A stretch of 64,000 nt of DNA from Paludibacterium purpuratum. GTDB lineage: Bacteria > Pseudomonadota > Gammaproteobacteria > Burkholderiales > Chromobacteriaceae. A program made the position numbers and the translations under genes. The DNA is taken from positions 124,001 through 188,000 of the forward strand of contig NZ_SNZP01000009.1 of the NCBI RefSeq assembly GCF_004363805.1. Reading direction: 5' to 3'. Under the pieces are notes generated by a model. The model was given only the letters and a program-made list of their open reading frames with translations. It was not told the origin of the DNA and made no database searches. Shown piece by piece: positions 8,559-26,736 of this stretch (its first letter is position 1; every line of letters starts with the position of its first letter).

Positions 8559-8632
8559 TGGAGGCGGGGGTCGGAATCGAACCGGCGTACACGGCTTTGC
8601 AGGCCGCTGCATAACCACTCTGCCACCCCGCC
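8559..8632 (-). tRNA. tRNA-Cys (anticodon GCA)
   Basis: This is a 74-nt cloverleaf on the minus strand with encoded CCA. The acceptor GGCGGGG pairs with CCCCGCC, the anticodon loop is CTGCAAA and the T-loop is GGTTCGATTCC. It is the last gene of the tRNA cluster, before the shared terminator. Confidence 0.96.
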
Positions 8633-8662
8633 ATGAGGTGTCGATCGCTAGGCGATCCTATC

Positions 8663-8738
8663 TGGAGCGGGAAACGAGGCTCGAACTCGCGACCTCAACC
8701 TTGGCAAGGTTGCGCTCTACCAACTGAGCTATTCCCGC
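8663..8738 (-). tRNA. tRNA-Gly (anticodon GCC), copy 1 by coordinate
   Basis: The 76-nt gene has acceptor GCGGGAA pairing with TTCCCGC, anticodon GCC in the loop TTGCCAA, and encoded CCA. It is identical to the genes at 8851 and 8946. Confidence 0.96.
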
Positions 8739-8755
8739 ATAAATCTTCGTGTCGT

Positions 8756-8831
8756 TGGAGCGGGAGACGAGTCTCGAACTCGCGACCTCAACCTTGGCAA
8801 GGTTGCGCTCTACCAACTGAGCTACTCCCGC
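8756..8831 (-). tRNA. tRNA-Gly (anticodon GCC), copy 2, slightly diverged
   Basis: It matches the other three copies except for compensated acceptor changes (GCGGGAG with CTCCCGC) and a changed T-stem base pair (GAGTCTCG in place of GAGGCTCG on the plus strand). Pairing is preserved, so the gene looks functional. Confidence 0.96.
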
Positions 8832-8850
8832 AACGCCACTTAGCTGTCTT

Positions 8851-8926
8851 TGGAGCGGGAAACGAGGCTCGAACTCGCGACCTCAACCTTGGCAAGGTTG
8901 CGCTCTACCAACTGAGCTATTCCCGC
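8851..8926 (-). tRNA. tRNA-Gly (anticodon GCC), copy 3
   Basis: The 76-nt gene is identical in sequence to the copy at 8663, separated from its neighbours by 19 bases on either side. Confidence 0.96.
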
Positions 8927-8945
8927 GTCACTTTCATTCGGTGTT

Positions 8946-9021
8946 TGGAGCGGGAAACGAGGCTCGAACTCGCGACCTCAACCTTGGCAAGGTTGCGCTC
9001 TACCAACTGAGCTATTCCCGC
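8946..9021 (-). tRNA. tRNA-Gly (anticodon GCC), copy 4
   Basis: This is the first tRNA gene after pgsA on the minus strand, identical to the copy at 8663. Co-transcription from pgsA or from a promoter in the AT-rich 74-bp gap (9022-9095) is likely. Confidence 0.96.
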
Positions 9022-13297: not shown

Positions 13298-13885
13298 ATG
13301 GACATGTACATGGGCACCGTGACGATTTTCGCCTTTAACTACGCACCGCAGGATTGGGCATTGTGTCAGGGGCAGACCTACCAGGTATCGCAGTACCAGG
13401 CTTTGTATTCGCTGCTGGGCAACCTTTACGGCGGCACGGCGCCGCAAAATTTCCAGTTGCCCAACCTGGTCGGCCGCATGCCGATCGGCACCGGGCCGGC
13501 GCAACCGGCATACAACCTGCCGGCTTACAGTCCCGGCCAGTTCGGCGGCCAGCAAAGCACCACGCTGACTATCGCCGATTTACCGCCGCATACCCACGGC
13601 ACTTCGACCATGAAAGTGTCTCTCCAAGCAGCCGGCACACCGTCGCCGACCACGCCGGCCAGCGCACCGAGCGCCAGCAACCCCTACTTGGGCGCATCGG
13701 GCGGCGGGACAGGGCTCGCCACCATCTGGTCCAATGCCTTGAATAACCCGGTCAGCGTGCAAGGCGGCGGATTCAGCGGCGGTACCGACCCCACCGGTCA
13801 GGGCGTGCCGGTGTCGGTGCTCAACCCGTTCCTGGCGCTCAATTTCTGCATCGCCATTCAAGGCCTCTATCCGCCGCATCCATAA
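13298..13885 (+). CDS. Phage tail-collar domain protein, microcystin-dependent protein (Mdp) type
   Basis: The 195-residue protein begins with the tail-collar pattern (MGTVTIFAFNYAPQDWALCQG, then YQALYSLLGNLYGG and LPNLVGRMPIG), has a central LPPHTHG motif, a Ser/Thr/Pro/Gly-rich variable segment, and ends NPFLALNFCIAIQGLYP. Such MdpB-like proteins are common in non-phage chromosomes and may be secreted or surface-exposed. Their function is not established. No phage structural or integration genes are nearby, so this is not evidence for a prophage. A good ribosome-binding site (GAAGGGAGAAG) precedes the ATG. It probably forms a two-gene unit with the next gene. Confidence 0.82.
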   Translation: MDMYMGTVTIFAFNYAPQDWALCQGQTYQVSQYQALYSLLGNLYGGTAPQNFQLPNLVGRMPIGTGPAQPAYNLPAYSPGQFGGQQSTTLTIADLPPHTHGTSTMKVSLQAAGTPSPTTPASAPSASNPYLGASGGGTGLATIWSNALNNPVSVQGGGFSGGTDPTGQGVPVSVLNPFLALNFCIAIQGLYPPHP

Positions 13886-14334: not shown

Positions 14335-14853
14335 TCACCCAATAGCCGGGTCGCGCTCGGGCAGCCACTGCAGCTTGTCCGCCATCGCCCCCTGCTCCAC
14401 CGGCTGGAAGCCCATGCGCAGGTAGAGCCGGCGCGCACCGGGGTTGCTGTGCCACACCACGGTCGTCAGTGGTGCGCGCACTTGCCAGGCGGCTCGCTGC
14501 AAGCCTTTGATCACTTCCGCGCCAAGCCCGCGTCCTCGCGTCTCGGGCAACAGCGCGAAATAGATCAGCCGCACCTCGCTGTGGCCGAAGTCGACCATCG
14601 CCGCGCCAATGGCGCCGCCGGCCCGCTCGACGACGAAATGCATCGCATTGTCGTAGCCATTGCCCGCGCCCTGTAACAACACCTGGTACTGCTGCGCCTG
14701 CACGGTGCGGATCAACTCGTCCTCGCCGTCGATCAGCAACAAATCGGGACGCGCCAGCCGATAGAGCCGGGCAAGGAAAGGCTCATCGCTGGCCCGGGCT
14801 GGCCGCAACGTCAGATGGTTCAGCAGTGCGGCGGTATTCAGCATGGTGGTCAT
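14335..14853 (-). CDS. GNAT family N-acetyltransferase
   Basis: The 172-residue protein shows the GNAT fold. The acetyl-CoA pyrophosphate-binding motif is LLPETRGRGLGAEVIKGL (R/Q-x-x-G-x-G/A form), and a C-terminal strand-helix NPGARRLYLRMGFQPVEQ is typical. The substrate cannot be predicted. It is a single gene, convergent with the DUF6916-type gene and separated from the downstream end of the adhesin operon by 27 bp. Confidence 0.85.
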   Translation of the reverse strand: MTTMLNTAALLNHLTLRPARASDEPFLARLYRLARPDLLLIDGEDELIRTVQAQQYQVLLQGAGNGYDNAMHFVVERAGGAIGAAMVDFGHSEVRLIYFALLPETRGRGLGAEVIKGLQRAAWQVRAPLTTVVWHSNPGARRLYLRMGFQPVEQGAMADKLQWLPERDPAIG

Positions 14854-14880: not shown

Positions 14881-16989
14881 TCAAAGCCCAGCCTCGCGTT
14901 CCAATTCGGTCAGCAGTTGCCGTAGCGCGCCGGCAAGCAAACTACGGTGCCCGCCTTCCAGGCGCGCCACGCCGGTCATTTCCCGTAGCGGCGCCTCACG
15001 GCTGTCGCATTGATCCAGGTGCACGCGGAACACGGCATTGACCGGCACCAGCTCCTGATCGTGCAACTCCGTGGCGATCGGTCCGCCATAAGTGGAGGCC
15101 AACAACGGTTGATCGAGGGTCGGCAGGTTCAAGCGATCGATCTGCGAAAGCCGGCAGGTCACCCCCCAATGCTCGCCGCCGTTGGCCACGAAGCGGGCCG
15201 AACCACCCGGCGCAAGCCCGGACAGCGCGGTTTCGTCGACATACGCTTCGCCCTTGACGCCTTGCGGACCAACCACATCCAGCAGGTGCTCGCCTTCGGC
15301 AATGGCGATGCCCGGCCGCAAGGCATCGGAGAGATCCGTCACGCGGCCGGCGAACGGGGCGATCAACTGCAGACGCGCGCTTTGCTGCGTCAGCCCCGCC
15401 ACATCCGACTGCGCCGCCTGCCACTCTTTGAACAGCGCCGAGCCTTGCTGCTGCAATTCGGCCGCCATCGGTTGCTGCGCCACCTGCCAAGCCAGACCGC
15501 GCTCGCGCGCTTGCGCCAGCGCCAAGCGCGCCTCCAGCGCCGTGGAGCGCAAGCGAGCCAACGGCTGCCCCGCCCTTACGCGCTGCCCCTCCGCCACCAG
15601 AACCTGCGTCACTTCACCCGCCAGCGGCGCGTACAAGCCCTGGGACTCCGCAGCCCCCAGCACGGCCGGGCTCGACGTATCCGACTGCCACGGCAACACG
15701 AACCACAGCGCCAACAGACTCAAAAGCACGGCACTGCGCCGGGTTTCGCGCCGCCACACCAGTTCGCCGCGCCGCGACCAGATCACCCGCAACTCCATCA
15801 CAATCGGCCGCGCGATGAACCACCCCAGCTCGACGAACAGCAGCACAATGCCCAGGGCCTTGAAAAACAAGTTGTAGACCAGGAAAGCGATCGACAGGAA
15901 CAACACCAGTCGGTAAAGCCAGGTGCCCCAGGCGAACAGGATCAGACCGAGCCGGCGCCGTTCGGGGAAAAACTCAGGCGCCGGATCGTCCAAGCCCAAC
16001 GCGAGCTGTCGCAAACGCCAGCGCGCCAGCGCGAAGGCACGCGCATGCAGATTGGGCATGCCCAGCCAATCGGAGAGCAGGAAATAGCCGTCGAAGCGCA
16101 TGAATGGACTGGCATTGAGCGCCAAGGTGGCAAGCCAAGTGGTGGTCGCCAACAGAAACACCCCGGCACGCAATGGCCCGTCGGGCAGGAAACACCACGC
16201 CAGCGTCGCCCAGACCGCCAACAGCAGCTCGGCCAGCATACCGGCGCCGCCGATCAGCAGCCGCTGACGGCGCGACGACAGTTTCCAGGCATCGTTGGTA
16301 TCGGTGTAGAGCACCGGCACCATCACCAGAAAGGCCACTCCCATCGCCGGTACGCGGCAACCGAAATGGCGCGCGGTCAGCGCATGGCCCATTTCATGCA
16401 CCAGTTTGGCCAGGCCCAGCGATAGGCCGATCCCCAGCGCCGCGCCAAATCCGCCATAAGCGGCAAAGGTATGGGTGAACGCATCCCAGCGCTGCGAAAC
16501 CAGCCAGAGCGCCACGAGCAGCACGCCGGCCATCGCCCGCCAGAATGCCGGGCGGAACAATCCATGGCACCAAGGCAGCAGCGCGTTGAGCAGCCGCTGC
16601 GGCCGTAGCAGCGGCACGCGGAAAAACAGGTAGTTTTTCAACAGCCACATGGCGCGGCCGGGTCGATTGGCCTCGCGCACCCGCCACAACCATTGGCTGT
16701 CATCATGGCTCGTCGCGACCAGTAGCTGATGTTGCGCCAGAAACTGGCGCACTGCATCGATATCGTCCAGCGTCAACTGCAAGGTGGTTTGCGCATTGAC
16801 CTCGGCCAGCACGGCCTGCGCCGTACCGAGCGGCCAACGCGAGAGGATCTCGAAACTGGCCCAACTCAACTGGTAGAAGCGATTGACGCACGGATCGTGC
16901 AGCACCCAACTGGGCGCGCCATCGGCCTGCGGTTCGCCGGTATGCAGGGTCAACTCCTGGCGCAACGGCGGCAACGGACGATCGACCAT
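14881..16989 (-). CDS. PqqD-like / M50 metalloprotease / HlyD-like fusion membrane protein
   Basis: This 702-residue polytopic protein ends the adhesin operon. Residues about 10-95 resemble the PqqD/RRE winged-helix fold that binds leader peptides (VLHDPCVNRFYQLSWASFEIL). Several membrane helices follow, with the zinc-protease motif HEMGH at 198-202 in a helix, a second-site Asp in FMRFDGYFLLSDW (near 300), and further helices to about 430. Residues 450 to the end are a periplasmic HlyD-like barrel-sandwich with hairpin (GLYAPLAGEVTQVLVAEGQRVRAGQPLARL). The family is the peptide zinc metalloprotease type (YydH-like, S2P clan). The ATG at 16989, 2 bp after the preceding stop, is preferred; the frame is open further upstream inside the previous gene. 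No ABC transporter gene is present in the operon. Function in export or processing of the giant surface protein is an inference. Confidence 0.8.
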   Translation of the reverse strand: MVDRPLPPLRQELTLHTGEPQADGAPSWVLHDPCVNRFYQLSWASFEILSRWPLGTAQAVLAEVNAQTTLQLTLDDIDAVRQFLAQHQLLVATSHDDSQWLWRVREANRPGRAMWLLKNYLFFRVPLLRPQRLLNALLPWCHGLFRPAFWRAMAGVLLVALWLVSQRWDAFTHTFAAYGGFGAALGIGLSLGLAKLVHEMGHALTARHFGCRVPAMGVAFLVMVPVLYTDTNDAWKLSSRRQRLLIGGAGMLAELLLAVWATLAWCFLPDGPLRAGVFLLATTTWLATLALNASPFMRFDGYFLLSDWLGMPNLHARAFALARWRLRQLALGLDDPAPEFFPERRRLGLILFAWGTWLYRLVLFLSIAFLVYNLFFKALGIVLLFVELGWFIARPIVMELRVIWSRRGELVWRRETRRSAVLLSLLALWFVLPWQSDTSSPAVLGAAESQGLYAPLAGEVTQVLVAEGQRVRAGQPLARLRSTALEARLALAQARERGLAWQVAQQPMAAELQQQGSALFKEWQAAQSDVAGLTQQSARLQLIAPFAGRVTDLSDALRPGIAIAEGEHLLDVVGPQGVKGEAYVDETALSGLAPGGSARFVANGGEHWGVTCRLSQIDRLNLPTLDQPLLASTYGGPIATELHDQELVPVNAVFRVHLDQCDSREAPLREMTGVARLEGGHRSLLAGALRQLLTELEREAGL

Positions 16990-16991
16990 GC

Positions 16992-18311
16992 CTACCACCC
17001 TAGCCATTGCCGCGCGGCGGTCGCCGGCCGGCGCAAGGCGTAGTAGATCAACGGCACCCAATGCCCATACACCCGGGCGGTACCCATCTGGCCAAGCCTG
17101 GGCGGCGTGTCGTCGGTGAAACGCGCTTGCACCCGGTACGCCAGCAAGCCGCCCTCCACCGGTTCGGCCTTGTAAGCCACGCGCAGGATCTCGGCCGAGT
17201 AGGATTCGGTCGGCGAGGCATTGGGGTACAAGGTCACCTTGCCGCCGGGCACCAAGTCGATGGCCTCGGCCGCCGGTAGCCAGGCGGCCAACTCGACATG
17301 GGAGGGATCGGCCAGCGTCATCACCTTTTCGCCCTGCGCCACCGCGCGCCCCTGCCAATCGCTGCGGTCGGAAAACACCACCACGCCGGCCGCAGGCGCC
17401 GTGACGTGCAGGCGCTGCAGCTCGCGGTCAGAGTATTCGGCCGCGATGGTCTTCTCTTCCAGCTTGGCGCGATCCTGCGCCATCGCCAGTTTGCCCTTGT
17501 CGTCGGTCAGCGCCAGTTGCGAGCTGACACGGAAGCTCTCCTCGGCGGCGTCGCGCTCGCTGGCCGCCAAGGCGGATTGTCCGGACAGCGCGGTGGCATC
17601 CAAATCGAACAAGGGCGTTCCCCGCGCCACACGCTGATTGGGCTCGACCGCGATGCGGTCGATCACCCCGGCCAATGGCGCGCGCATCAGCAGAGGATCG
17701 CGCGGCACCACCTCGGCGCGGGTCAGCACACTCAATCGGATCGGCATCAAGGCCAGCAGCAGGACCGCCAACAGGATACGGCGCTGGCGCGGTTTGGGCC
17801 GCAGCCACTGTCGCGCCGTTTCACGCCAGTCGCGCCGTGGCGCGAACTGCCGCAGCGCGTGGGCATAACCATGCGCCAGCTCTTCCGCCAAGCGCAGCTC
17901 GATCTCGCTCCAAGGCGTGTCGCGCGCCAACAGCAAGGCGCCCTGTCCGCCCAGACGCAACCACAACGCGTGGGCAGGCAGCCAATCGCTCCATTCGGTA
18001 GACAGCCGCGCCGGCAGGTGTTCGGCGCTCAGCATGCGGCTCGCGCCGGCGGACGAATCCGCCGCGAGCCAGCGGAACACCGCATTCAGCCACTGCATAT
18101 AAGGGGCGGTCGGTTCCAGCTCGGCCAGGCCGGACAAGGCCGACACATGGCGGTGCAGGCCCTCGCGCCACAAGGCGGCCTGCCGGTAGGGCAACAGTTG
18201 CTGGCTTTCATTGACCACGATAAAGCCCAGCTGCGCCGCGTTGTCCGCCTCGCGCGCGCGGTGAAGCAGCTGCAGCAGGCAGGCCAGCGTCAGACTCTTA
18301 TCCGCTTCCAT
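16992..18311 (-). CDS. HlyD-family membrane fusion protein with GAF-like cytoplasmic N-domain
   Basis: The 439-residue protein has an unusual cytoplasmic N-terminal region of about 170 residues (LQLLHRAREADNAAQLGFIVVNESQQLLPYRQAALW has the look of a GAF domain). A membrane helix lies near 178-195 (ILLAVLLLALMPIRLSVL), followed by a periplasmic adaptor with lipoyl-type half motifs (APLAGVIDRIAVEPNQRVARGTPLF and VTAPAAGVVVFSDR) around a short coiled hairpin. Adaptors of this kind connect an inner-membrane pump to TolC. It is the fourth gene of the operon and sits 7 bp from the previous stop. Whether the N-domain senses a ligand is unknown. Confidence 0.8.
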   Translation of the reverse strand: MEADKSLTLACLLQLLHRAREADNAAQLGFIVVNESQQLLPYRQAALWREGLHRHVSALSGLAELEPTAPYMQWLNAVFRWLAADSSAGASRMLSAEHLPARLSTEWSDWLPAHALWLRLGGQGALLLARDTPWSEIELRLAEELAHGYAHALRQFAPRRDWRETARQWLRPKPRQRRILLAVLLLALMPIRLSVLTRAEVVPRDPLLMRAPLAGVIDRIAVEPNQRVARGTPLFDLDATALSGQSALAASERDAAEESFRVSSQLALTDDKGKLAMAQDRAKLEEKTIAAEYSDRELQRLHVTAPAAGVVVFSDRSDWQGRAVAQGEKVMTLADPSHVELAAWLPAAEAIDLVPGGKVTLYPNASPTESYSAEILRVAYKAEPVEGGLLAYRVQARFTDDTPPRLGQMGTARVYGHWVPLIYYALRRPATAARQWLGW

Positions 18312-18318
18312 GACGCCT

Positions 18319-19062
18319 CTACTTGAAACTGGCCCAGCCGCTCATGCCCGGCAACAGACTCTTGCCCGCCCCGTTATCGATCACCCCGACCGCCACAATC
18401 GACTGACTGACCGGATCGATCTGCGCCCCCAGGCGCACGATCTTGGCCTGAAAACTGGCCCCCAGCTCGTCGACCGCCACCGTGAAGCTGCTGCCCGGCT
18501 TTAACTTGCTCAACCATTTCGACGGCACCAGCATGCGCAATTCCAACGGCCCGGCATCGACCACGTCCAACACCGGATTGCCCGGGTTGACGAACTGGTG
18601 CACGGCGGCAATGCGCCGCGCCACGCGTCCGTCGAACGGCGCGCTGATCACGCATTTGCCGACCACCGTCTGCATATAGCTGGCATCGGCCGCCGCCTCC
18701 TTGGCCTTGCCTTGCGCCTGAACCACTTCCAATTCGCCCACCGAATTGAGTTTGGCCAGTTGCGTGTTCACTTGCACCAAGCGGCTGGCGGCTTCCAACG
18801 ACGCCTGCGCCTTGCGCAGCTGCGCGCGGTAGCTATTGCAATCGAAGGTCACCAGCGCCTGCCCGCGCTTGAAGCTGCCGCCTTCCTGTACCGGGATGGC
18901 GGAAATCTTGGCGGCGATCTCGCCCGACAACGTCACGGCATTTTGCGCCATCAACTGCACGCGAATCCGGCCATCGCTCGCCATGCCGGGCGTTTGCGCC
19001 GCGGCGGCCAGCGCCAGGCCGGCACAGGCCAGACCCAGGCCATAACCTCTCCATGCGCTCAT
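18319..19062 (-). CDS. Periplasmic adaptor subunit (HlyD/RND-MFP type)
   Basis: The 247-residue protein has a signal peptide (ending near AAAAQ) and a short adaptor fold: a barrel strand SGEIAAKISAIPVQEGGSFK, a coiled hairpin of about 60 residues (YRAQLRKAQASLEAASRLVQ...), the second lipoyl half APFDGRVARR and a beta-barrel domain. It lacks an N-terminal membrane anchor, unlike HlyD of hemolysin systems. It overlaps the upstream TolC-family gene by 4 bp, indicating translational coupling. A third HlyD-like module in the same operon suggests a multi-part periplasmic conduit. Confidence 0.82.
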   Translation of the reverse strand: MSAWRGYGLGLACAGLALAAAAQTPGMASDGRIRVQLMAQNAVTLSGEIAAKISAIPVQEGGSFKRGQALVTFDCNSYRAQLRKAQASLEAASRLVQVNTQLAKLNSVGELEVVQAQGKAKEAAADASYMQTVVGKCVISAPFDGRVARRIAAVHQFVNPGNPVLDVVDAGPLELRMLVPSKWLSKLKPGSSFTVAVDELGASFQAKIVRLGAQIDPVSQSIVAVGVIDNGAGKSLLPGMSGWASFK

Positions 19063-20498
19063 GGCCGCTCCCCGCTTTGGGGCACGGTCAGCGTGCCGTC
19101 CGGGCCGGGATCGAGCCCCAGGCTTGCGCCCATTTGGCCGTAGGCGTTCTGCAAACCGCCATAGCTCTGGTACAGCCGCAGCGACGAAAAGACCGCGTTG
19201 GCATCGGCCAGGATGGCGGGCAAGCGGCCCTGGGCGCCGCTGGCGAAGGCATTGCGGTTTTGTTCGTAAATACGCTGATCGACGTCGTTCAGATCTTTTT
19301 CCAGCGAGAATTCATTGGCGCGGCCCTGCCAGTCGAGATAGGCCACCTGCACCTGGGTCAGCACCGCCATGTTCAACGCCATGCGTTGCGCGCGGGCGAC
19401 TTCCAACTGCGCATCGGCCGCGCGGGTAATCGGCCCGGCGCTAAATAGGTTCAACAGGTTCCAGCTGACGCGTAGCCCCGCATCGCTCCACGAATTGTTG
19501 ACCAGGAATCGATTGCTGTCGTAATGCTGGCCGATGCTGAATTCGATACCGGGCAACAAGCGGGCGATCGCCTTGCGCGTTTCCAACACGCCGATGCGTT
19601 CGTTGTAGCGCGCTTCGTTCAGCTCCGGCCGATTCAACAGCGCCATTTCTTCCATCTTGTCGAGCGGCACGTTCAACACCGGCATCGGCATGCTGGCCGG
19701 CACCGCCACTTGGAAATTCTGTCCCGGCGGCACGTTCATCAAGGCGGCCAAGCGCGGCTTGGCCTGCGCCAAGGCACTACGCACCAAGGTCATTTGCCGC
19801 ACCACGTCCAGTAATTGCCGACGGTAGTTCAACGCTTCCAGCGGCGAGCGCAATTTCAGCTTCTCCACTTGGCGCGCATCCTCAAGCGCCAGGTTGGCTT
19901 GTTGCAGCAACTGATCGATACGGCCTTCGAGCTGCTGCGCGCCGACCGCCTCCCACCAGGCTTCGCGCACCTGCTGTACCAGCTGTTGCGCCACCTTGCG
20001 CTGACGCTGCTGCAGAATCAGCAAGCGGTCGGACTGCTGCTTGGCGCTGTAGTAGCTGACACCGAAATCCAGCACGTTCCAGCTCAGCGTCAAATCCGCG
20101 GTACGGTCGTGCTTCTCGGTAGAAATCGAAGGCACCAACGACTGCGTGCCGGTGGCGACGTTCTGCGACGAGGAGGCGTTGTCGTTGTTGCGCTGGGTGT
20201 AGCCGGCCGCCAGCGCCAACTTCGGCAGCATATCCAGGCTGGACAGATCCAACTGTCGCTGCGCCATGGCCTCTTCCATCAACTTGACGCGGTAATCCAG
20301 GTTGTACTTCAAGGCGCGCGCCATCGCTTCTTGCAAAGTCACCGGCCCGGACAACGCCTCTTGCTGGCCGAACATCATCTGGCGATCCGTCGCCAGCGTC
20401 GCCTGGCGCTCGTCCATGCCCATCGGCGACGGGCCGACGGCACACCCCGCCAAGAGCAAAGCCGACAAGACGGCGACCCCTTGATAACGCCTATCCAT
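19059..20498 (-). CDS. TolC-family outer-membrane efflux lipoprotein
   Basis: The 479-residue protein has a lipoprotein signal with lipobox LAGC (Cys18) and two OEP repeats with long helical hairpins and beta-strand pairs (VTLQEAMARALKYNLDYRV; RVSWNLLNLFSAG). TolC-family trimers form the outer-membrane channel and periplasmic tunnel of type I secretion and efflux pumps. It is the second gene of the operon, 42 bp after the giant surface-protein gene and overlapping the adaptor gene, so it is probably dedicated to that substrate. Confidence 0.88.
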   Translation of the reverse strand: MDRRYQGVAVLSALLLAGCAVGPSPMGMDERQATLATDRQMMFGQQEALSGPVTLQEAMARALKYNLDYRVKLMEEAMAQRQLDLSSLDMLPKLALAAGYTQRNNDNASSSQNVATGTQSLVPSISTEKHDRTADLTLSWNVLDFGVSYYSAKQQSDRLLILQQRQRKVAQQLVQQVREAWWEAVGAQQLEGRIDQLLQQANLALEDARQVEKLKLRSPLEALNYRRQLLDVVRQMTLVRSALAQAKPRLAALMNVPPGQNFQVAVPASMPMPVLNVPLDKMEEMALLNRPELNEARYNERIGVLETRKAIARLLPGIEFSIGQHYDSNRFLVNNSWSDAGLRVSWNLLNLFSAGPITRAADAQLEVARAQRMALNMAVLTQVQVAYLDWQGRANEFSLEKDLNDVDQRIYEQNRNAFASGAQGRLPAILADANAVFSSLRLYQSYGGLQNAYGQMGASLGLDPGPDGTLTVPQSGERP

Positions 20499-20540
20499 AT
20501 TTCCCCCCTGTGTCTACGTTATATGGCTACGGCACTTTTG

Positions 20541-23500
20541 TTAGCTCAGCCATTGCGCCAGTCTGCCCTGGCCATGCTGTTTGAATTGTTCGTTCAAGGC
20601 TTGCTTGCCCGGGTGGCCGGCATCTGCGGCCGGCTCTCCCGTCTTGAGTTGCAAATGCGCCACCCCGCGATGACCGTTGCGATCTTGCACCGTCACATCC
20701 AACGACAACGGTTTGTTCCAACCCGTCGGCGGCGTGCCGCTGAAGCGACCGGTCTGCGGGTCGAAACGCAGCCAGCCCGGCAAGGGCTGACCATTGCTTT
20801 GCCTTACCTGGATGCTCAGCACGGAACTCGCCTCGCGCGTCACCACCGTGCCGGGCGGTAGGTTGAAACTGAATGACTGCCCCGCCACCAGCGGCCTCAC
20901 CCCCAGATCCGGCAACACCTGCAGCGCAGGCCCCTGTGTGGCGAGCTGGACGCTGATGAAGGTTTGCGGGCTCGGACCGTTGTCCGCGCCATGTAGCGAC
21001 GGCGTCGGCGCAGGGGGGCTAATGAAATGATCCTGACCGAAGGCCGGCGTACTCGATAGCGGTCCAGAGCCGCCACCCGTGCCGGTCGTCACGGCGACGA
21101 GTGGCGCCGGCGCGTTCGCTGCGGCTCTGACCGCTGCCAACACGATATTGGGCGTGATCGGCGCAATCGCGATCGGTGCCGTGGTCGTGCCGGCCACGGG
21201 CGGCGGTGCTGGCGGCACCGGGGCCGGCGGGGGCGGCGGCGTCACCGGCGTGGTGATCTGATACGCAGTCGCAACCGTTTGCAGCGCATTGCTGTTGCCC
21301 GCCGCATCGGACACCGCGCCGACCGGCACGGCCAGCGCCAGCGAGCCATCGCCGCCAACACCGGACAAATGCACCACGTAATGACCGGGGCTGACCTCCA
21401 CCACCGAGGAGACCGTGCCTTGCGCACTGCCGGTGGCCACGGTGTTGAACGCGCCGGCGCTCAGACCGCTGACCGGTTTGGAAAACACGACGTCGTAGCT
21501 CAGGCTGTTCGCGCTGGTGGAAAGCGTATCGAGCGGCGTGATCGATTGCACTTGCGGCGCGACGGTGTCCACCGTCACGGTATAAGCCGTCGACTGCGCG
21601 CTGTTATTGCTGCCCAGCGTCGCCATGGCGCGGATGCTGTGGTTGCCGTCGCTCAGCGGACTGGTCAAGGTGTAATGCCAGGCGCCGCTGCCGTCGGCGG
21701 TAGTGGTGCCCACGCTGCTACCGTCCACATAGACCGTCACCGTGGCGCCGGCCTGCGCCGTACCGGTGACATCGGGCGTGGTGTCGTTGGTCACGCCATC
21801 GCTATGACTGCTGCCGGTGTCGGTGGCCGTGGAGAGCGCGAGCGAGCCCGGTGCCGGTAACTGTAGGGCAACCGAGCGCGTGACCGTACTACTGGTCTTC
21901 GTGCCGTCGCTGACCTGGAAGCTGACCGTACGCGTCGCGGTGTTCGGTGTCACTGCGCTGTCGCTGTAGGTCACCGACCGCAAGGCTGCCTGCCATTGCG
22001 CCAAGCTGGCGGTGGCGCCGCTGGAGGTCAGCGTCAGCACGCCGGTGCCGCTGTTGTAGCTGGCGGCGATATTGCCCATGGTGCTGCCGTTGTTGGTAAA
22101 CGCCAACACGTCTTCACTGCTGTGGAAGTTACCGCTGATCGACACCGTGGCACTGGCCAGCGTGGTGTTGTCCAGGTCGGTGACCGTGATGCCACCATCC
22201 ACCGCCACCGGGTCTGCGCCAAGCACGAAGCTGCCGCTGCCGCCCGAGGCGCTGGCAACCGGCGTCTGGTCGGTGTCGGCCACCGTCACGCTCTTGCTGA
22301 CTGCACTGCTGGCCTTGCTGCCGTCGCTGACCTGGAAGCTGATGGTGCGCGTGGCGCTGTTCGGCGTCACCGCGCTATCGCTGTAGGTCACCGCGCGCAA
22401 GGCCGCCTGCCATTGCGCCAGCGTCGCCGTGGCGCCGCTCGAAGTCAGCGTCAGTACCCCGGTACCGCTGTTGTAGCTGGCGGCGATGTTGCCCATGGTG
22501 CTGCCGTTGTTGGTAAACGCCAGCACGTCCTCGCCGCTGTGGAAGTTACCGGTGATCGACACCGTGGCGCTCGCTAGCGTCGTATTGTCCAGGTCCGACA
22601 GCGTGAGGCCGCTGTCGACCGCCACCGGGGTGGAGGCGGTATTGTCGCCGGCGGTAAAGGCCGTGCTGCCGCCCGAGGCAGTGGCGATCGGCGTCTGGTC
22701 GGTATCGGCCACCGTCACGCTCTTGCTGACCGCGCTGCTGGTTTTGCTGCCGTCGCTGACCTGGAAGCTGATGGTGCGCGTGGCGCTGTTCGGCGTCACC
22801 GCGCTGTCGGTGTAGGTCACCGCGCGCAAGGCTGCCTGCCATTGCGCCAGCGTCGCCGTGGCCCCGCTGGAGGTCAACGTCAGTACCCCGGTGCCGCTGT
22901 TGTAGCTGGCGCTGATATTGCCAAAGGTGATCGCACTGGTGTTACTGAAGGCCAGCACGTCCTCGCCACTATGGAAGTTGCCGGTGATCGACACCGTGGC
23001 GCTCGCCAAGGTTGTATTGTCCAGATCCGATATCGTGATGCCGCTGTCCACCACCACCGGGGTGGAAGCGGTGTTGTCGCCGGCGGTAAACGCCGTACTG
23101 CCGCCCGAGGCGGTGGCAATCGGCGTCTGGTCGGTATCGGCCACCGTCACGCTCTTGGTGACTGCACTGCTGGCCTTGGTACCGTCGCTGACCTGGAAGC
23201 TAATGGTGCGCGTGGCGCTGTTCGGCGTCACCGCGCTATCGGTGTAGGTCACCGCGCGTAACGCCGCCTGCCATTGCGCCAGCGTCGCGGTAGCGCCGCT
23301 GGAGGTCAACGTCAGCACCCCGGTGCCGCTGTTGTAACTGGCGGTGATGTTGCCCATGGTGCTGCCGTTGTTGGTAAACGCCAGCACGTCCTCGCCGCTG
23401 TGGAAGTTACCGGTGATCGACACCGTGGCGCTCGCCAGCGTCGAATTGTCCAGGTCCGACAGCGTGATGCCGTTATCCACCGCCACCGGGGTGGAGGCGG

Positions 23501-26500
23501 TGTTGTCGCCGGCGGTAAACGCCGTACTGCCGCCCGAGGTGGTGGCGATCGGCGTTTGATCGGTGTCGGCCACCGTCACGCTCTTGGTCACCGCGCTGCT
23601 GGTTTTGCTGCCGTCGTTGACGCTGAAGCTGACCGTGCGTGTCGCGCTGTTCGGCGTCACTGCGCTGTCGCTGTAGGTCACCGCGCGCAAGGCCGCCTGC
23701 CATTGCGCCAGCGTCGCCGTGGCGCCGCTCGAAGTCAGCGTCAGCACCCCAGTACCGCTGTTGTAGCTGGCGGTGATGTTGCCCATGGTGCTGCCGTTGT
23801 TGGTAAACGCCAGCACGTCCTCGCCACTATGGAAGTTGCCGGTAATCGACACCGTGGCGCTGGCCAAGGTCGTGTTGTCCAGGTCCGATACCGTGATGCC
23901 GCTGTCCACCGCCACCGGGGTGGAGGCGGTGTTGTCGCCGGCGGTAAAGGCCGTACTGCCGCCCGAGGTGGTGGCAATCGGCGTCTGGTCGGTGTCGGCC
24001 ACGGTGACGGTACGCGTGACCGTACTGCCGGCGTTGCTGTTGCCGTCGGTGGCTACGAAACTGACGGTGCGTGTCGCGCTGTTCGGTGTCACTGCGCTGT
24101 CGGTGTAGGTCACCGCGCGCAAGGCTGCCTGCCATTGCGCCAAAGTGGCGGTGGCACCGCTGGAGGTCAGCGTCAGCACCCCGGTGCCGCTGTTGTAACT
24201 GGCGGTGATATTGCCCATGGTGCTGCCGTTGTTGGTAAAGGCCAGCACGTCTTCGCCGCTGTGGAAGTTACCGCTGATGGACACCGTGGCGCTGGCCAAG
24301 GTACTGCAGCCCTGGTCGACCAGGGTCAGGCCGCTGTCGACCGCCACCGGGGTGGAAGCGGTGTTGTCGCCGGCGACGAAGGCCGCACTGCCGCCGCTCA
24401 GGGTCAGAATCGGCGCGGAGATGACGGAGAGTGTCACGCTGGCGGCGGAACTGGTCTGGCCATGGCCGTCGTTGACGGCGACTTGCACTGTACGCGTAGC
24501 GGTATTGGGCGAGCCGGCGCTGTTGCTGTAGGTGAAGGCACCCACCAACGTGGTGACGCGGCTGGCGGTGGCATTGCCGTTGAGCGTGACGATCAGGTCG
24601 TGCCCGCTCACACCGTCGCCGTTGCTGGCAATGGTGCCGACCGCGACCCCTCCCACCGACACCGTGCTGCCGACGCTGGTGCCGCTACTGAGCGACACGG
24701 TGCCGCTGGTATCGACCCCCAGCACGTCTTCGCTGCTGTGACCGTTGGCCGAAATATGCACGGTGACGTTGCCGCTATTGAAATTGGGCGAATCGCTGTC
24801 GGTCACCGTGGCTGCGGTGCCGGTATCCAGGTGCACAGCGCCACCGCCGATCAGATAGGCCGGGCTGTCGCCGTTGAGGTTGCCGATCGCCGGCGCGACG
24901 TCGGCGGCCACCGTCACGCTCTTGGTGACCGTGCCGCTGGTATTGCTTCCGGGATCGGTAATGACAAAGCTGATGGTGCGCGTGCTGGTGTTGGGCGTCA
25001 GCAAGGTGTCTTGGTAGGTCACCGCGCGTAGCGCCGCCTGCCACTGCGCGGTGGTGGCGAGGGAACCGCTGGAAGTCAGCGTCAGCACCCCGCCGCTATT
25101 GCTCTGGACGGCGATATTGCCCATGGTGCTACCGTCGTTGGTGAACGCCAGCACATCCTCGCCGCTATGGAAGTTGCCGGTGATCGACACCGTGGCCGTC
25201 GTCTCGGTCGTGGTGGCGGTGTCTCGCAGCGTCAGGCCACTATCCACCGCCACCGCGTTGCCGTTGCCGGCGCTATAGGCGCTGCTGCCGCCGCTGGTGG
25301 TGATGGTCGGCCCCGGCATATGGAAGTTGACGGCGTTGATGTTGCCGATGCCCACCTGGCCGGTAATGTTGTGACCGTTGGCGGCCATCACGCGGAACGA
25401 ATCGATTTCTTGAAAACCACTGATGCCGGACACGTTGAACAGCACATTCGCGCCGCTAGCGCTGAAGTCGCCGACCGATTGGGTCAGCGTCGCGCCGCTG
25501 ACCGCCGAACCGTTGAGATAACCGACCAACTGCACGTTACCGCTCGTGAAGGCCTGGTCGTAACCGCTCAGCACCACGTAAATCGAATTGAGCGTGAACA
25601 GACTGCTGTCGTTGGGCTTAACGGAAAAATAGGTGATGTGCTTGGCGCCGTCGCTGATGGCATCGACCGTCTCCACCGTGCTAGTCCCATCCACCCCGAC
25701 TGCGATCAGCTCGTTCAGGCCATCGCCGTTGGTATTCATCTGCATGGTGAAGTCCCAGCCGAGCTGATTCGACAAGGTCACGAACGAAGAGCCTAAGGCC
25801 ACTGTCGTCGAATGGCCATCAACCGTCGTAAAGTCGGTGGTACCGGTACTCGGCCGCGTCAGCAGGCCGTCGTAGCTCAAATCCAGGCTGGCCACGTCGA
25901 TGTGGCCTGTGCTGCGCTCCAGCGTCCAATTACCGCCGAGGCTGGCGGCGCCGGTGGCATCGGTCGAAGCGGCCACCACCGCGTGGGTATCCTGCGCCAG
26001 GCTTTGGATAAATGCCGCACCATCCTGGCCGGCGGCGATATCGCAACCGTAGAGCAGGATATCGCCGCCCGGCTGCAAGGCCTGGCCGATGGTGGTCAGA
26101 TCCGCTTGGCGGCTGGCGAGGTTGGCTTGGCTGAGCGATAACGTACCGAGCATCAGATCGTTGGCTTCGCCGTGCGAAATGATATGCATGGCGGCGAAGC
26201 CCTGATGCGCGCGCGCCCACTGCGCGATCTGCGCCAGGCCGTCGCTATGGCTATCGAGCACCACCACCAAGTCGCCGACTGGCAGTTGGGCGATCAAGCT
26301 CTGATAATTTGCGACATCGTTCTCGACGAACACCACCTGACGGGCCGGCGGCGGTGCGGCGGGCGGGGAGACCGCGGCAGGCGCCGGCGCATCCGTCGTA
26401 TGCTCGGCCACAGTAGGATGCGGCACATCGTGCGCGGCATCGGCGATGGCGCCGGTCGCCGCCACCGCGCCGTCGAACATCATTCTCGGTTCCAGCGCTT

Positions 26501-26546
26501 GCAACAACTGCCGCGCATGCCTTTTTGTAGGTATTCCGCCTGCCAT
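20541..26546 (-). CDS. Giant repetitive surface/adhesin-like protein with LEPR motif and DUF4347 domain
   Basis: The 2001-residue protein starts at the ATG at 26546 after GGGGAGAG; an upstream in-frame ATG at 26597 overlaps a likely -10 region. It has no Sec signal. Residues 18-27 are LEPRMMFDGA, an N-terminal motif shared by many very large secreted proteins. Residues about 71-228 are a DUF4347 domain with HIISHG (121-126) and LLYGCD. A discoidin/lectin-like segment may occupy about 240-420. Then come tandem 143-residue cadherin/VCBS-like repeats (ITGNFHSGEDVLAFTNNGS core), one diverged unit, a Bap-type Ig domain, a Pro-rich linker and a final He_PIG-like domain (PLPGWLRFDPQTGRFSGTP). No RTX nonapeptides were seen. 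It leads the export operon and is probably its cargo, displayed on or released from the surface. Confidence 0.88.
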   Translation of the reverse strand: MAGGIPTKRHARQLLQALEPRMMFDGAVAATGAIADAAHDVPHPTVAEHTTDAPAPAAVSPPAAPPPARQVVFVENDVANYQSLIAQLPVGDLVVVLDSHSDGLAQIAQWARAHQGFAAMHIISHGEANDLMLGTLSLSQANLASRQADLTTIGQALQPGGDILLYGCDIAAGQDGAAFIQSLAQDTHAVVAASTDATGAASLGGNWTLERSTGHIDVASLDLSYDGLLTRPSTGTTDFTTVDGHSTTVALGSSFVTLSNQLGWDFTMQMNTNGDGLNELIAVGVDGTSTVETVDAISDGAKHITYFSVKPNDSSLFTLNSIYVVLSGYDQAFTSGNVQLVGYLNGSAVSGATLTQSVGDFSASGANVLFNVSGISGFQEIDSFRVMAANGHNITGQVGIGNINAVNFHMPGPTITTSGGSSAYSAGNGNAVAVDSGLTLRDTATTTETTATVSITGNFHSGEDVLAFTNDGSTMGNIAVQSNSGGVLTLTSSGSLATTAQWQAALRAVTYQDTLLTPNTSTRTISFVITDPGSNTSGTVTKSVTVAADVAPAIGNLNGDSPAYLIGGGAVHLDTGTAATVTDSDSPNFNSGNVTVHISANGHSSEDVLGVDTSGTVSLSSGTSVGSTVSVGGVAVGTIASNGDGVSGHDLIVTLNGNATASRVTTLVGAFTYSNSAGSPNTATRTVQVAVNDGHGQTSSAASVTLSVISAPILTLSGGSAAFVAGDNTASTPVAVDSGLTLVDQGCSTLASATVSISGNFHSGEDVLAFTNNGSTMGNITASYNSGTGVLTLTSSGATATLAQWQAALRAVTYTDSAVTPNSATRTVSFVATDGNSNAGSTVTRTVTVADTDQTPIATTSGGSTAFTAGDNTASTPVAVDSGITVSDLDNTTLASATVSITGNFHSGEDVLAFTNNGSTMGNITASYNSGTGVLTLTSSGATATLAQWQAALRAVTYSDSAVTPNSATRTVSFSVNDGSKTSSAVTKSVTVADTDQTPIATTSGGSTAFTAGDNTASTPVAVDNGITLSDLDNSTLASATVSITGNFHSGEDVLAFTNNGSTMGNITASYNSGTGVLTLTSSGATATLAQWQAALRAVTYTDSAVTPNSATRTISFQVSDGTKASSAVTKSVTVADTDQTPIATASGGSTAFTAGDNTASTPVVVDSGITISDLDNTTLASATVSITGNFHSGEDVLAFSNTSAITFGNISASYNSGTGVLTLTSSGATATLAQWQAALRAVTYTDSAVTPNSATRTISFQVSDGSKTSSAVSKSVTVADTDQTPIATASGGSTAFTAGDNTASTPVAVDSGLTLSDLDNTTLASATVSITGNFHSGEDVLAFTNNGSTMGNIAASYNSGTGVLTLTSSGATATLAQWQAALRAVTYSDSAVTPNSATRTISFQVSDGSKASSAVSKSVTVADTDQTPVASASGGSGSFVLGADPVAVDGGITVTDLDNTTLASATVSISGNFHSSEDVLAFTNNGSTMGNIAASYNSGTGVLTLTSSGATASLAQWQAALRSVTYSDSAVTPNTATRTVSFQVSDGTKTSSTVTRSVALQLPAPGSLALSTATDTGSSHSDGVTNDTTPDVTGTAQAGATVTVYVDGSSVGTTTADGSGAWHYTLTSPLSDGNHSIRAMATLGSNNSAQSTAYTVTVDTVAPQVQSITPLDTLSTSANSLSYDVVFSKPVSGLSAGAFNTVATGSAQGTVSSVVEVSPGHYVVHLSGVGGDGSLALAVPVGAVSDAAGNSNALQTVATAYQITTPVTPPPPPAPVPPAPPPVAGTTTAPIAIAPITPNIVLAAVRAAANAPAPLVAVTTGTGGGSGPLSSTPAFGQDHFISPPAPTPSLHGADNGPSPQTFISVQLATQGPALQVLPDLGVRPLVAGQSFSFNLPPGTVVTREASSVLSIQVRQSNGQPLPGWLRFDPQTGRFSGTPPTGWNKPLSLDVTVQDRNGHRGVAHLQLKTGEPAADAGHPGKQALNEQFKQHGQGRLAQWLS
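21870..25310 (-). repeat. Tandem 429-bp repeats inside the giant surface-protein gene
   Basis: The marker encoding DQTP recurs at about 22262, 22690, 23122, 23551 and 23980, a period of about 429 bp (143 residues). The central units are nearly identical at DNA level. Units at both ends are more diverged, including one (about 24380-24900) that keeps only part of the pattern. About seven units can be recognised. Confidence 0.88.
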
Positions 26547-26736
26547 ATTGCTCTCCCCGACCCGCTTGTCCGACAACCACCAGCATGCATTAATCATAAT
26601 ACAATTACAACCAATAACTCATTCATGTTTATACCCATATACGATTACCGTTCGCCATCCAAATCGCGAATAAACGCAGGCGTGCTGGTTTTTGCTAACA
26701 TCATGGCCATCATCATCAAATACCCCCGCCACTTGC

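Follow-up and report, generated by a model that had tools for sequence, protein, structure and literature searches.

How could a giant surface protein be exported by a gene set that resembles type I secretion machinery and encodes no ATP-binding cassette (ABC) transporter? This question is raised by a five-gene locus in a stretch of 64,000 nt from Paludibacterium purpuratum (contig NZ_SNZP01000009.1; hereafter the window, all coordinates being positions in it unless a locus is named), where a giant repeat protein is encoded together with a TolC-family lipoprotein, a soluble adaptor, an anchored HlyD protein, and a fusion of an M50 metalloprotease with an HlyD domain (M50-HlyD). An initial annotation had proposed a dedicated processing and export route for the giant, or else reliance on an unlinked ATPase. 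We consider a dedicated export route quite probable, and rate the full model, a dedicated and ABC-independent route for giant proteins beginning with a motif here called LExR, slightly above an even chance. Gene content, conservation, linkage, folds, and the concordance of motif and machine are established by computation. Linkage and an N-terminal motif that follows the clade of the M50-HlyD protein speak for the initial proposal; its remaining parts, namely translocation by the M50 protein, cleavage of the substrate and export of the giant, we infer. The strongest sign in the sequences that LExR may speak to the machine is that the form of the motif tracks the M50 clade.

Organization of the locus

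The five minus-strand open reading frames (ORFs) described initially were recovered in the same order, with re-measured gaps of 42, –4, 7, and 2 bp. A Pfam scan of the five products agreed with the description in two further points, the absence of an ABC gene from the locus and the presence of three separate HlyD-like modules (HlyD_3 is matched in three proteins), and yielded matches to DUF4347 (E = 3.6e-49), OEP (8.7e-36), and Peptidase_M50 (6e-09). The genes and their features are as follows.

20541–26546, minus strand: giant surface protein of 2001 amino acids (aa), with a basic N-terminus containing LExR, DUF4347, tandem immunoglobulin (Ig)/cadherin-like repeats, and a short C-terminal motif
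26466–26495, minus strand: D-type LExR motif LEPRMMFDGA, proposed export leader of the giant
25893–26336, minus strand: DUF4347 domain with a caspase-like fold
26166–26183, minus strand: IISHGE, with the His of DUF4347
26040–26057, minus strand: LLYGCD, with the Cys of DUF4347
20583–20597, minus strand: LNEQF, a copy of the short C-terminal motif of type A giants (post hoc pattern)
19059–20498, minus strand: TolC-family outer-membrane lipoprotein (lipobox LLAGC by eye)
18319–19062, minus strand: soluble periplasmic adaptor of the RND_mfp type, with a signal-peptide-like start and no further anchor by eye
16992–18311, minus strand: anchored HlyD protein with an N-terminal domain of about 175 aa and one membrane anchor by eye
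14881–16989, minus strand: M50-HlyD fusion of 702 aa, with PqqD-like N-terminal, site-2-protease membrane, and MacA-like HlyD domains
16384–16398, minus strand: HEMGH zinc site of the M50 domain (residues 198–202)
16084–16116, minus strand: NASPFMRFDGY, third zinc-ligand region of the M50 domain (residues 292–302)

The length of the giant is counted from the second ATG; a start at the in-frame ATG at 26597 would lengthen the protein by 17 aa. The N-terminal domain of the anchored HlyD protein matches GAF at E = 0.099 only.

The M50-HlyD protein contains both the HExxH and the NxxPFxxFDGY site. Residues H198, E199, H202, and D300 are unchanged throughout alignments of 26 and 54 M50-HlyD sequences, and the HExxH site and the distal Asp fall in the modelled helical region (147–431), as in site-2 proteases, where they lie in membrane helices. 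We predict that M50-HlyD is a site-2 protease, and proteolytic activity would follow from this assignment. The HlyD domain is fused to M50 in all 54 proteins scanned of type A, as we call the window's form; type B denotes its sister clade. In structure searches (Foldseek, VIA) with the M50-HlyD model, adaptor and biotinyl domains dominated the matches. The PqqD domain named in the initial annotation is retained in part: Pfam does not match it in the window protein, while PF05402 reaches E ≤ 0.1 in 8 of the 26 relatives (A1 members; best E = 2.3e-4). The modelled N-terminus, three strands followed by helices, looks compatible with PqqD by eye, and public annotation labels some type B members “PqqD family.”

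Distribution and gene order

M50-HlyD relatives occur in Proteobacteria, Nitrospirota, and Desulfobacterota, as well as on E. coli plasmids. Named genomes were scanned with 26 relatives, and the best 80 of 590 confirmed loci were analyzed. The nearest relative among these 80 is from Chromobacterium haemolyticum (74 percent identity), followed in order by those from Duganella, Phytobacter, Paraburkholderia, Azospirillum, Pseudomonas, Nitrospira, and Desulfobacterota. In 46 of the 80 loci, the 5 kb upstream of M50 contain TolC and HlyD genes in the same orientation (11 others are too short to judge, and 23 differ or are split), and an ORF of at least 700 aa lies on the M50 strand within 6.5 kb in 62. 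As both recur near M50, the five-gene arrangement is not due to chance.

The giant–TolC–adaptor–HlyD–M50 order itself recurs in Chromobacterium, Phytobacter, Paraburkholderia, Azospirillum, and on E. coli plasmids, and a variant order with M50 ahead of the giant is found in Nitrospira and others. Plasmid copies occur on a conjugative plasmid of Burkholderia anthina, on megaplasmids of Azospirillum, and on an E. coli IncF plasmid (NZ_CP104683.1; L186 968–20713), where a complete type A operon, its giant measuring 4457 aa, is located between insertion sequence (IS) elements. Near-identical copies of the M50-HlyD gene of this plasmid are present in 24 of 5,426 complete E. coli genomes, 22 of them covering at least 80 percent.

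The initial annotation had suggested searching genomes for DUF4347 proteins beside M50-HlyD fusions, and the two do co-occur. We used a class sample of 274 species' genomes, mutually related, with ORFs called in our scripts by a greedy longest-ORF procedure; 40 genomes are M50+ and 234 M50–, M50+ meaning an M50-HlyD match at E ≤ 1e-20, fragments included (the cut-off was chosen after the table had been seen). DUF4347 is present in 23 of the 40 M50+ genomes versus 8 of the 234 M50– ones. It is also present in 31 of 36 type A genomes (selected from the best 80 of 590), compared to 31 of 274 in the class sample.

Among NCBIfam models, the daptide intramembrane protease matches the M50 part best (E = 9.6e-42; 143 bits, with a cut-off of 300; residues 42–404). 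This match would suit a different cargo, M50-HlyD, HlyD, and TolC maturing and exporting another molecule, e.g., a peptide, with the giant a mere neighbor. We regard this as very improbable: the giant and the machine are kept together across phyla, plasmids, and several gene orders, and the motif class tracks the M50 class. Moreover, in a survey of unlabelled neighbors of 100–900 aa in 87 type A loci, the commonest are proteins judged PAS-like by eye (13 loci, on either strand) and fragments of giants (9 loci).

LExR motif and DUF4347

The giants begin with a short basic stretch and the LExR motif. The search pattern was built from the same giants, fixes L, E, and R, and splits the cases by a later D (D-type) or S/A (S-type). 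We dropped the invariance of L, E, R, and D as evidence, since it is fixed by the collecting pattern, and only the free positions are informative: D-type motifs have F before D in 30 of 33 cases and A after D-G/A in 32 of 33, and S-type motifs carry E at the second position ahead of L (15 of 16 cases) and A following S (14 of 16).

Other ORFs of at least 200 aa without DUF4347 at these loci match the pattern in 7 of 945 cases, all seven being large proteins (836–2744 aa) in an M50 locus. Among DUF4347 proteins with a closed N-terminus, 23 of 30 match; the misses are three near variants by eye and four proteins from genomes without M50-HlyD. In the class sample, DUF4347 proteins with readable N-termini were classified by eye, and LExR is seen in 21 of 22 from M50+ genomes; those from M50– genomes have LExR in one of seven cases (G245), a Sec-like signal in four, and neither in two (G068, a weak DUF4347 match, and G193, whose N-terminus is not visible, were left out of the count).

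The D-type motif accompanies M50 clade A in 33 of 33 cases and the S-type clade B in 16 of 16, a concordance of 49/49 with an effective sample smaller than 49, as two deep clades underlie it. The M50 class was assigned by profile score, with the exception of G094, G123, G056, G052, and the E. coli copy, for which identity or fragments were used. LExR is independent of DUF4347, because LExR giants without a DUF4347 match exist (G224, which has the window's gene order, G053, and the genomes of L089, L120, and L142). The window N-terminus also matches NCBIfam LEPR-XLL (NF012209) below the threshold (E = 0.037; score 13.7 against a cut-off of 17).

DUF4347 has a caspase-like (clan CD) fold and the His/Cys pair; TIM-barrel and dehydrogenase fold hits were not retained, being repeat or low-TM matches. 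In the copies from L110, L125, L026, L031, and L164, two of them in Nitrospira, the Cys is kept and the His is lost, and these copies are perhaps inactive. At the other end of the giants, the motif [LFVI]x[DEQASN]Q[LMVFI] occurs within the last 50 residues of 15 of 19 complete D-type giants versus 64 of 909 control ORFs, the pattern having been defined post hoc; it might act as another signal or in anchoring.

Truncated SecA in the sister clade

By profile scores, 91 loci are A-like and 21 are B-like. In type B the order is a GAF-HlyD protein (GAF is present in both proteins examined), M50-HlyD, and a SecA-like protein of about 650 aa, followed in a part of loci by the adaptor and the giant. 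The truncated SecA adjoins M50 in 17 of 21 B-like loci versus none of 91 A-like ones (some loci are too short). In a quick tree of 48 M50-HlyD proteins, which holds 11 of these 17 loci owing to a motif filter and the choice of rows, the 11 group with L070 and L076 in a single 13-member clade. The public annotation of type B plasmid neighbors reads “PqqD family peptide modification chaperone” and “translocase” in L182, and “peptidase M50” and “preprotein translocase subunit SecA” in L181.

Pfam finds SecA_DEAD, SecA_PP_bind, and P-loop_SecA in all four paralogs examined. In the alignment of 15 of the 17 paralogs, Walker A reads GEGKT in 13 sequences and GSGKS in two, and DEADS, GRGTDI, and GRxxRQG are present in all 15. 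As a genome trait, the truncated form is found in 17 of 40 M50+ and none of 234 M50– class genomes, in G081 on a contig other than that of the M50 locus. These 17 are among 22 of 274 genomes with at least two SecA matches at E ≤ 1e-25. The other five do not have the truncated form: G208 and G100 appear to have split canonical genes, G113 has two full-length SecA, and G016 and G095, small genomes without M50-HlyD, have a divergent SecA domain in a frame of 1050 aa (G016:C84:14923-15903) and 3154 aa (G095:C12:25448-26788), respectively. A further SecA match, G044:C1:2262362-2263534, lies inside an open frame given as 24,580 aa, which may be masked sequence. Nitrospira defluvii and Marinobacterium sediminicola (L193, L194) each have both a type A and a type B machine, and the type B locus of the former encodes a 690-aa protein with a variant motif, LEARVLLAGD.

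The window genome has one SecA, the housekeeping one, and no second copy. This single SecA, and the SecA relative encoded in the sister operon, would also be expected if the giant crossed via the ordinary Sec translocon, with M50-HlyD acting at the tripartite complex as a protease for regulation or release and not in translocation. Site-2 proteases otherwise act as processing enzymes, LapG, which controls LapA retention, provides a model for release, and GAF on the type B partner HlyD suggests signal control. On the other side, the LExR giants do not show a hydrophobic Sec signal peptide by simple hydropathy, used here in place of a dedicated predictor: the best 15-residue score averages 1.14 in 51 giants and is below 1.8 in 48 of them, the next highest value being 1.47, compared to 1.54–2.52 in five Sec-like DUF4347 proteins. 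The constant fusion of HlyD to M50 in type A would also not be obvious for a purely regulatory protease. We consider Sec-dependent export with a regulatory M50-HlyD rather unlikely, though the least improbable of the alternatives.

ABC transporters in M50 loci and in the window genome

An ABC exporter is not a consistent member of the co-occurring loci; its consistent presence would have told against the initial annotation. Any ABC ATPase is present in 15 of 116 M50 loci. The fetched stretches contain 21 ABC ORFs, and of the 11 put to Pfam only that of L155, on the opposite strand and 2.1 kb away, has an exporter membrane domain; the ten ORFs outside this Pfam set are all at most 375 aa. ABC genes beside M50 in L059 and L063 were considered as counter-examples and rejected: the products consist of ABC_tran, ABC_tran_Xtn, and ABC_tran_CTD, and are ABC-F proteins, presumably Uup-like, rather than exporters, because Pfam finds no membrane domain. 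These genes directly follow a divergent M50-HlyD gene (L059 7643–9505 and L063 13563–15431) in two genomes of one genus. In L081, a degenerate M50 fragment adjoins a 241-aa ABC ATPase, which is not interpretable.

The energy could also come from an unlinked type I ABC exporter, the locus supplying only adaptor, channel, and protease. In the window genome ABC_membrane is matched in nine places, none of them on the 208-kb contig of the window, and three of the eight whose surroundings were read resemble type I or bacteriocin exporters. However, each of these three adjoins an HlyD-like gene of its own, M50 loci of several phyla gave the single type I exporter mentioned above among the 11 of 21 ABC ORFs put to Pfam, and the sister clade encodes SecA instead of an ABC protein. 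Energy supply by an unlinked ABC exporter therefore appears improbable to us.

Surroundings of the locus

A Pfam scan of ten selected flanking ORFs, the only flanking frames covered, revealed no ABC ATPase or permease. They include a GNAT acetyltransferase, a phage-tail-collar protein, UvrC, an alpha/beta hydrolase, an AraC-type regulator, RibD, SHMT, and a periplasmic sugar-binding protein; two have no Pfam family. The phage-tail-collar-domain protein and the GNAT acetyltransferase (13298–13885 and 14335–14853) follow the operon, and among 87 type A loci, families of collar and GNAT neighbors, judged alike by eye, are seen in 5 and 3, with L087, L093, and L166 in both. A tRNA-Cys gene and four consecutive tRNA-Gly(gcc) genes occupy 8559–9021.

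Proposed export route

We propose that a soluble basic N-terminal leader with LExRxMFDGA would replace the Sec signal of the substrate. The PqqD-like domain of M50-HlyD would bind this leader, and M50-HlyD would serve as inner-membrane receptor, leader protease, and gate, its site-2-protease domain cutting the leader in or at the inner membrane. Whether M50 cleaves the leader is, in our estimate, evenly balanced. The HlyD part, the anchored HlyD protein, and the soluble adaptor would connect M50-HlyD to the TolC lipoprotein, so that the chain could reach the surface, with the caspase-like DUF4347 as an optional module for substrate processing or release.

The inner-membrane step would be powered by a SecA-family ATPase, the dedicated truncated SecA in the sister clade and, in the window's clade, the single housekeeping SecA as the most likely motor, which is favored given the SecA of the sister clade. 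The idea of an unlinked ATPase has in this way gained a concrete candidate, encoded in the sister operon, and the choice of motor in the window itself remains a guess. That a SecA-family motor drives export in the window genome we consider plausible, at somewhat less than even chances. With more reserve, a separate Gram-negative secretion class may be suggested, in which a minimal SecA (NBD1-PPXD-NBD2) threads LExR giants through or along M50-HlyD, one polypeptide binding, clipping, and opening onto TolC; the window's clade would then be a motor-less version, or one using the housekeeping SecA.

Several observations weigh against this route. Leader binding and cleavage, translocation, the motor, complex formation, and surface location are inferred. 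The PqqD domain is matched by Pfam in none of 54 type A (A2) proteins. The type A loci that were read have no linked ATPase, no recurrent neighbor ATPase family was seen in 87 of them (families were not put to Pfam), and 34 of 36 named type A genomes (selected from the best 80 of 590) have a single SecA, the remaining two, N. defluvii and M. sediminicola, having the second one beside a separate type B M50-HlyD gene; hence the guess about the motor. Four B-like loci (L062, L070, L071, and L076) lack a linked second SecA, which is found elsewhere in the genome only for L070. The alignment of the paralogs stops near residue 660 of the 897-residue canonical SecA, and GMTGT departs in 8 of 15. The paralogs thus lack the C-terminal part that holds the helical wing and the two-helix finger in housekeeping SecA, which works on SecYEG; with the shortened end and the departure in GMTGT, the truncated SecA may not act on SecYEG in the same way. 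Finally, the effective sample of the motif–clade concordance is limited, the M50+ genome G077 holds a DUF4347 protein with a Sec-like signal, and G245 has a D-type LExR DUF4347 giant (L167 12340–15945) and no match to the M50 part even by profile.

If the route holds, it adds a further bacterial way to display proteins ranging from roughly 1,000 to over 10,000 residues, with a site-2 protease and a reduced SecA standing in for the ABC exporter, and assigns functions to the LEPR-XLL motif and to DUF4347, both so far unexplained. How SecA pushes chains could then be asked on a motor without about a quarter of the protein. As M50-HlyD is present in 40 of 274 sampled class species and 24 of 5,426 E. 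coli genomes, the route is directly testable.

Comparison with known systems

No description of this system was found in the open-licence PubMed Central (PMC) literature, subscription papers and preprints being outside the scope of the search. The single parts belong to known families; the assembly, the link between leader and machine, and the truncated SecA appear to be new. The system would be of a new kind only if export holds; with M50 as a mere processor of a Sec substrate, it would be a variant.

Like type I secretion (HlyBD-TolC, and LapBCE for giant adhesins), the locus has HlyD-type adaptors, a TolC-family channel, the substrate gene in the operon, and a giant repeat protein with no Sec signal. 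Unlike it, the locus has no ABC transporter, a M50-HlyD fusion forms the inner-membrane part, the recognizable substrate motif of the giants is N-terminal, and there are three HlyD modules. By the defining ABC feature the locus is not a type I secretion system, while its periplasmic and outer-membrane parts resemble one. MacAB-TolC and other tripartite pumps differ in that the five genes include no MacB, RND, or MFS transporter.

Daptide and epipeptide M50 maturases (MpaP, YydH/LiaK) are site-2 proteases related by profile, and PqqD-like leader-binding domains occur in their pathways; here, in contrast, M50 forms one protein with a MacA-like HlyD domain, and its gene is linked to those of giants and TolC. 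Tce1 (PA0256), a putative cysteine protease effector of the type VI secretion system (T6SS), is Hcp cargo, whereas the domain studied here stands near the N-terminus of a giant surface protein. For LEPR-XLL and DUF4347, to which the window protein is related by a sub-threshold and a clear match, respectively, the little literature located holds no description as part of their own secretion system, and the D-type motif and the tie to the machinery are new in this analysis. A close parallel for the motor is accessory SecA (SecA2), as the sister clade's extra paralog keeps ATPase motifs and is linked to large surface proteins; it differs in its Gram-negative hosts, the early end of the paralog, its M50-HlyD partner, and its absence from the window genome.

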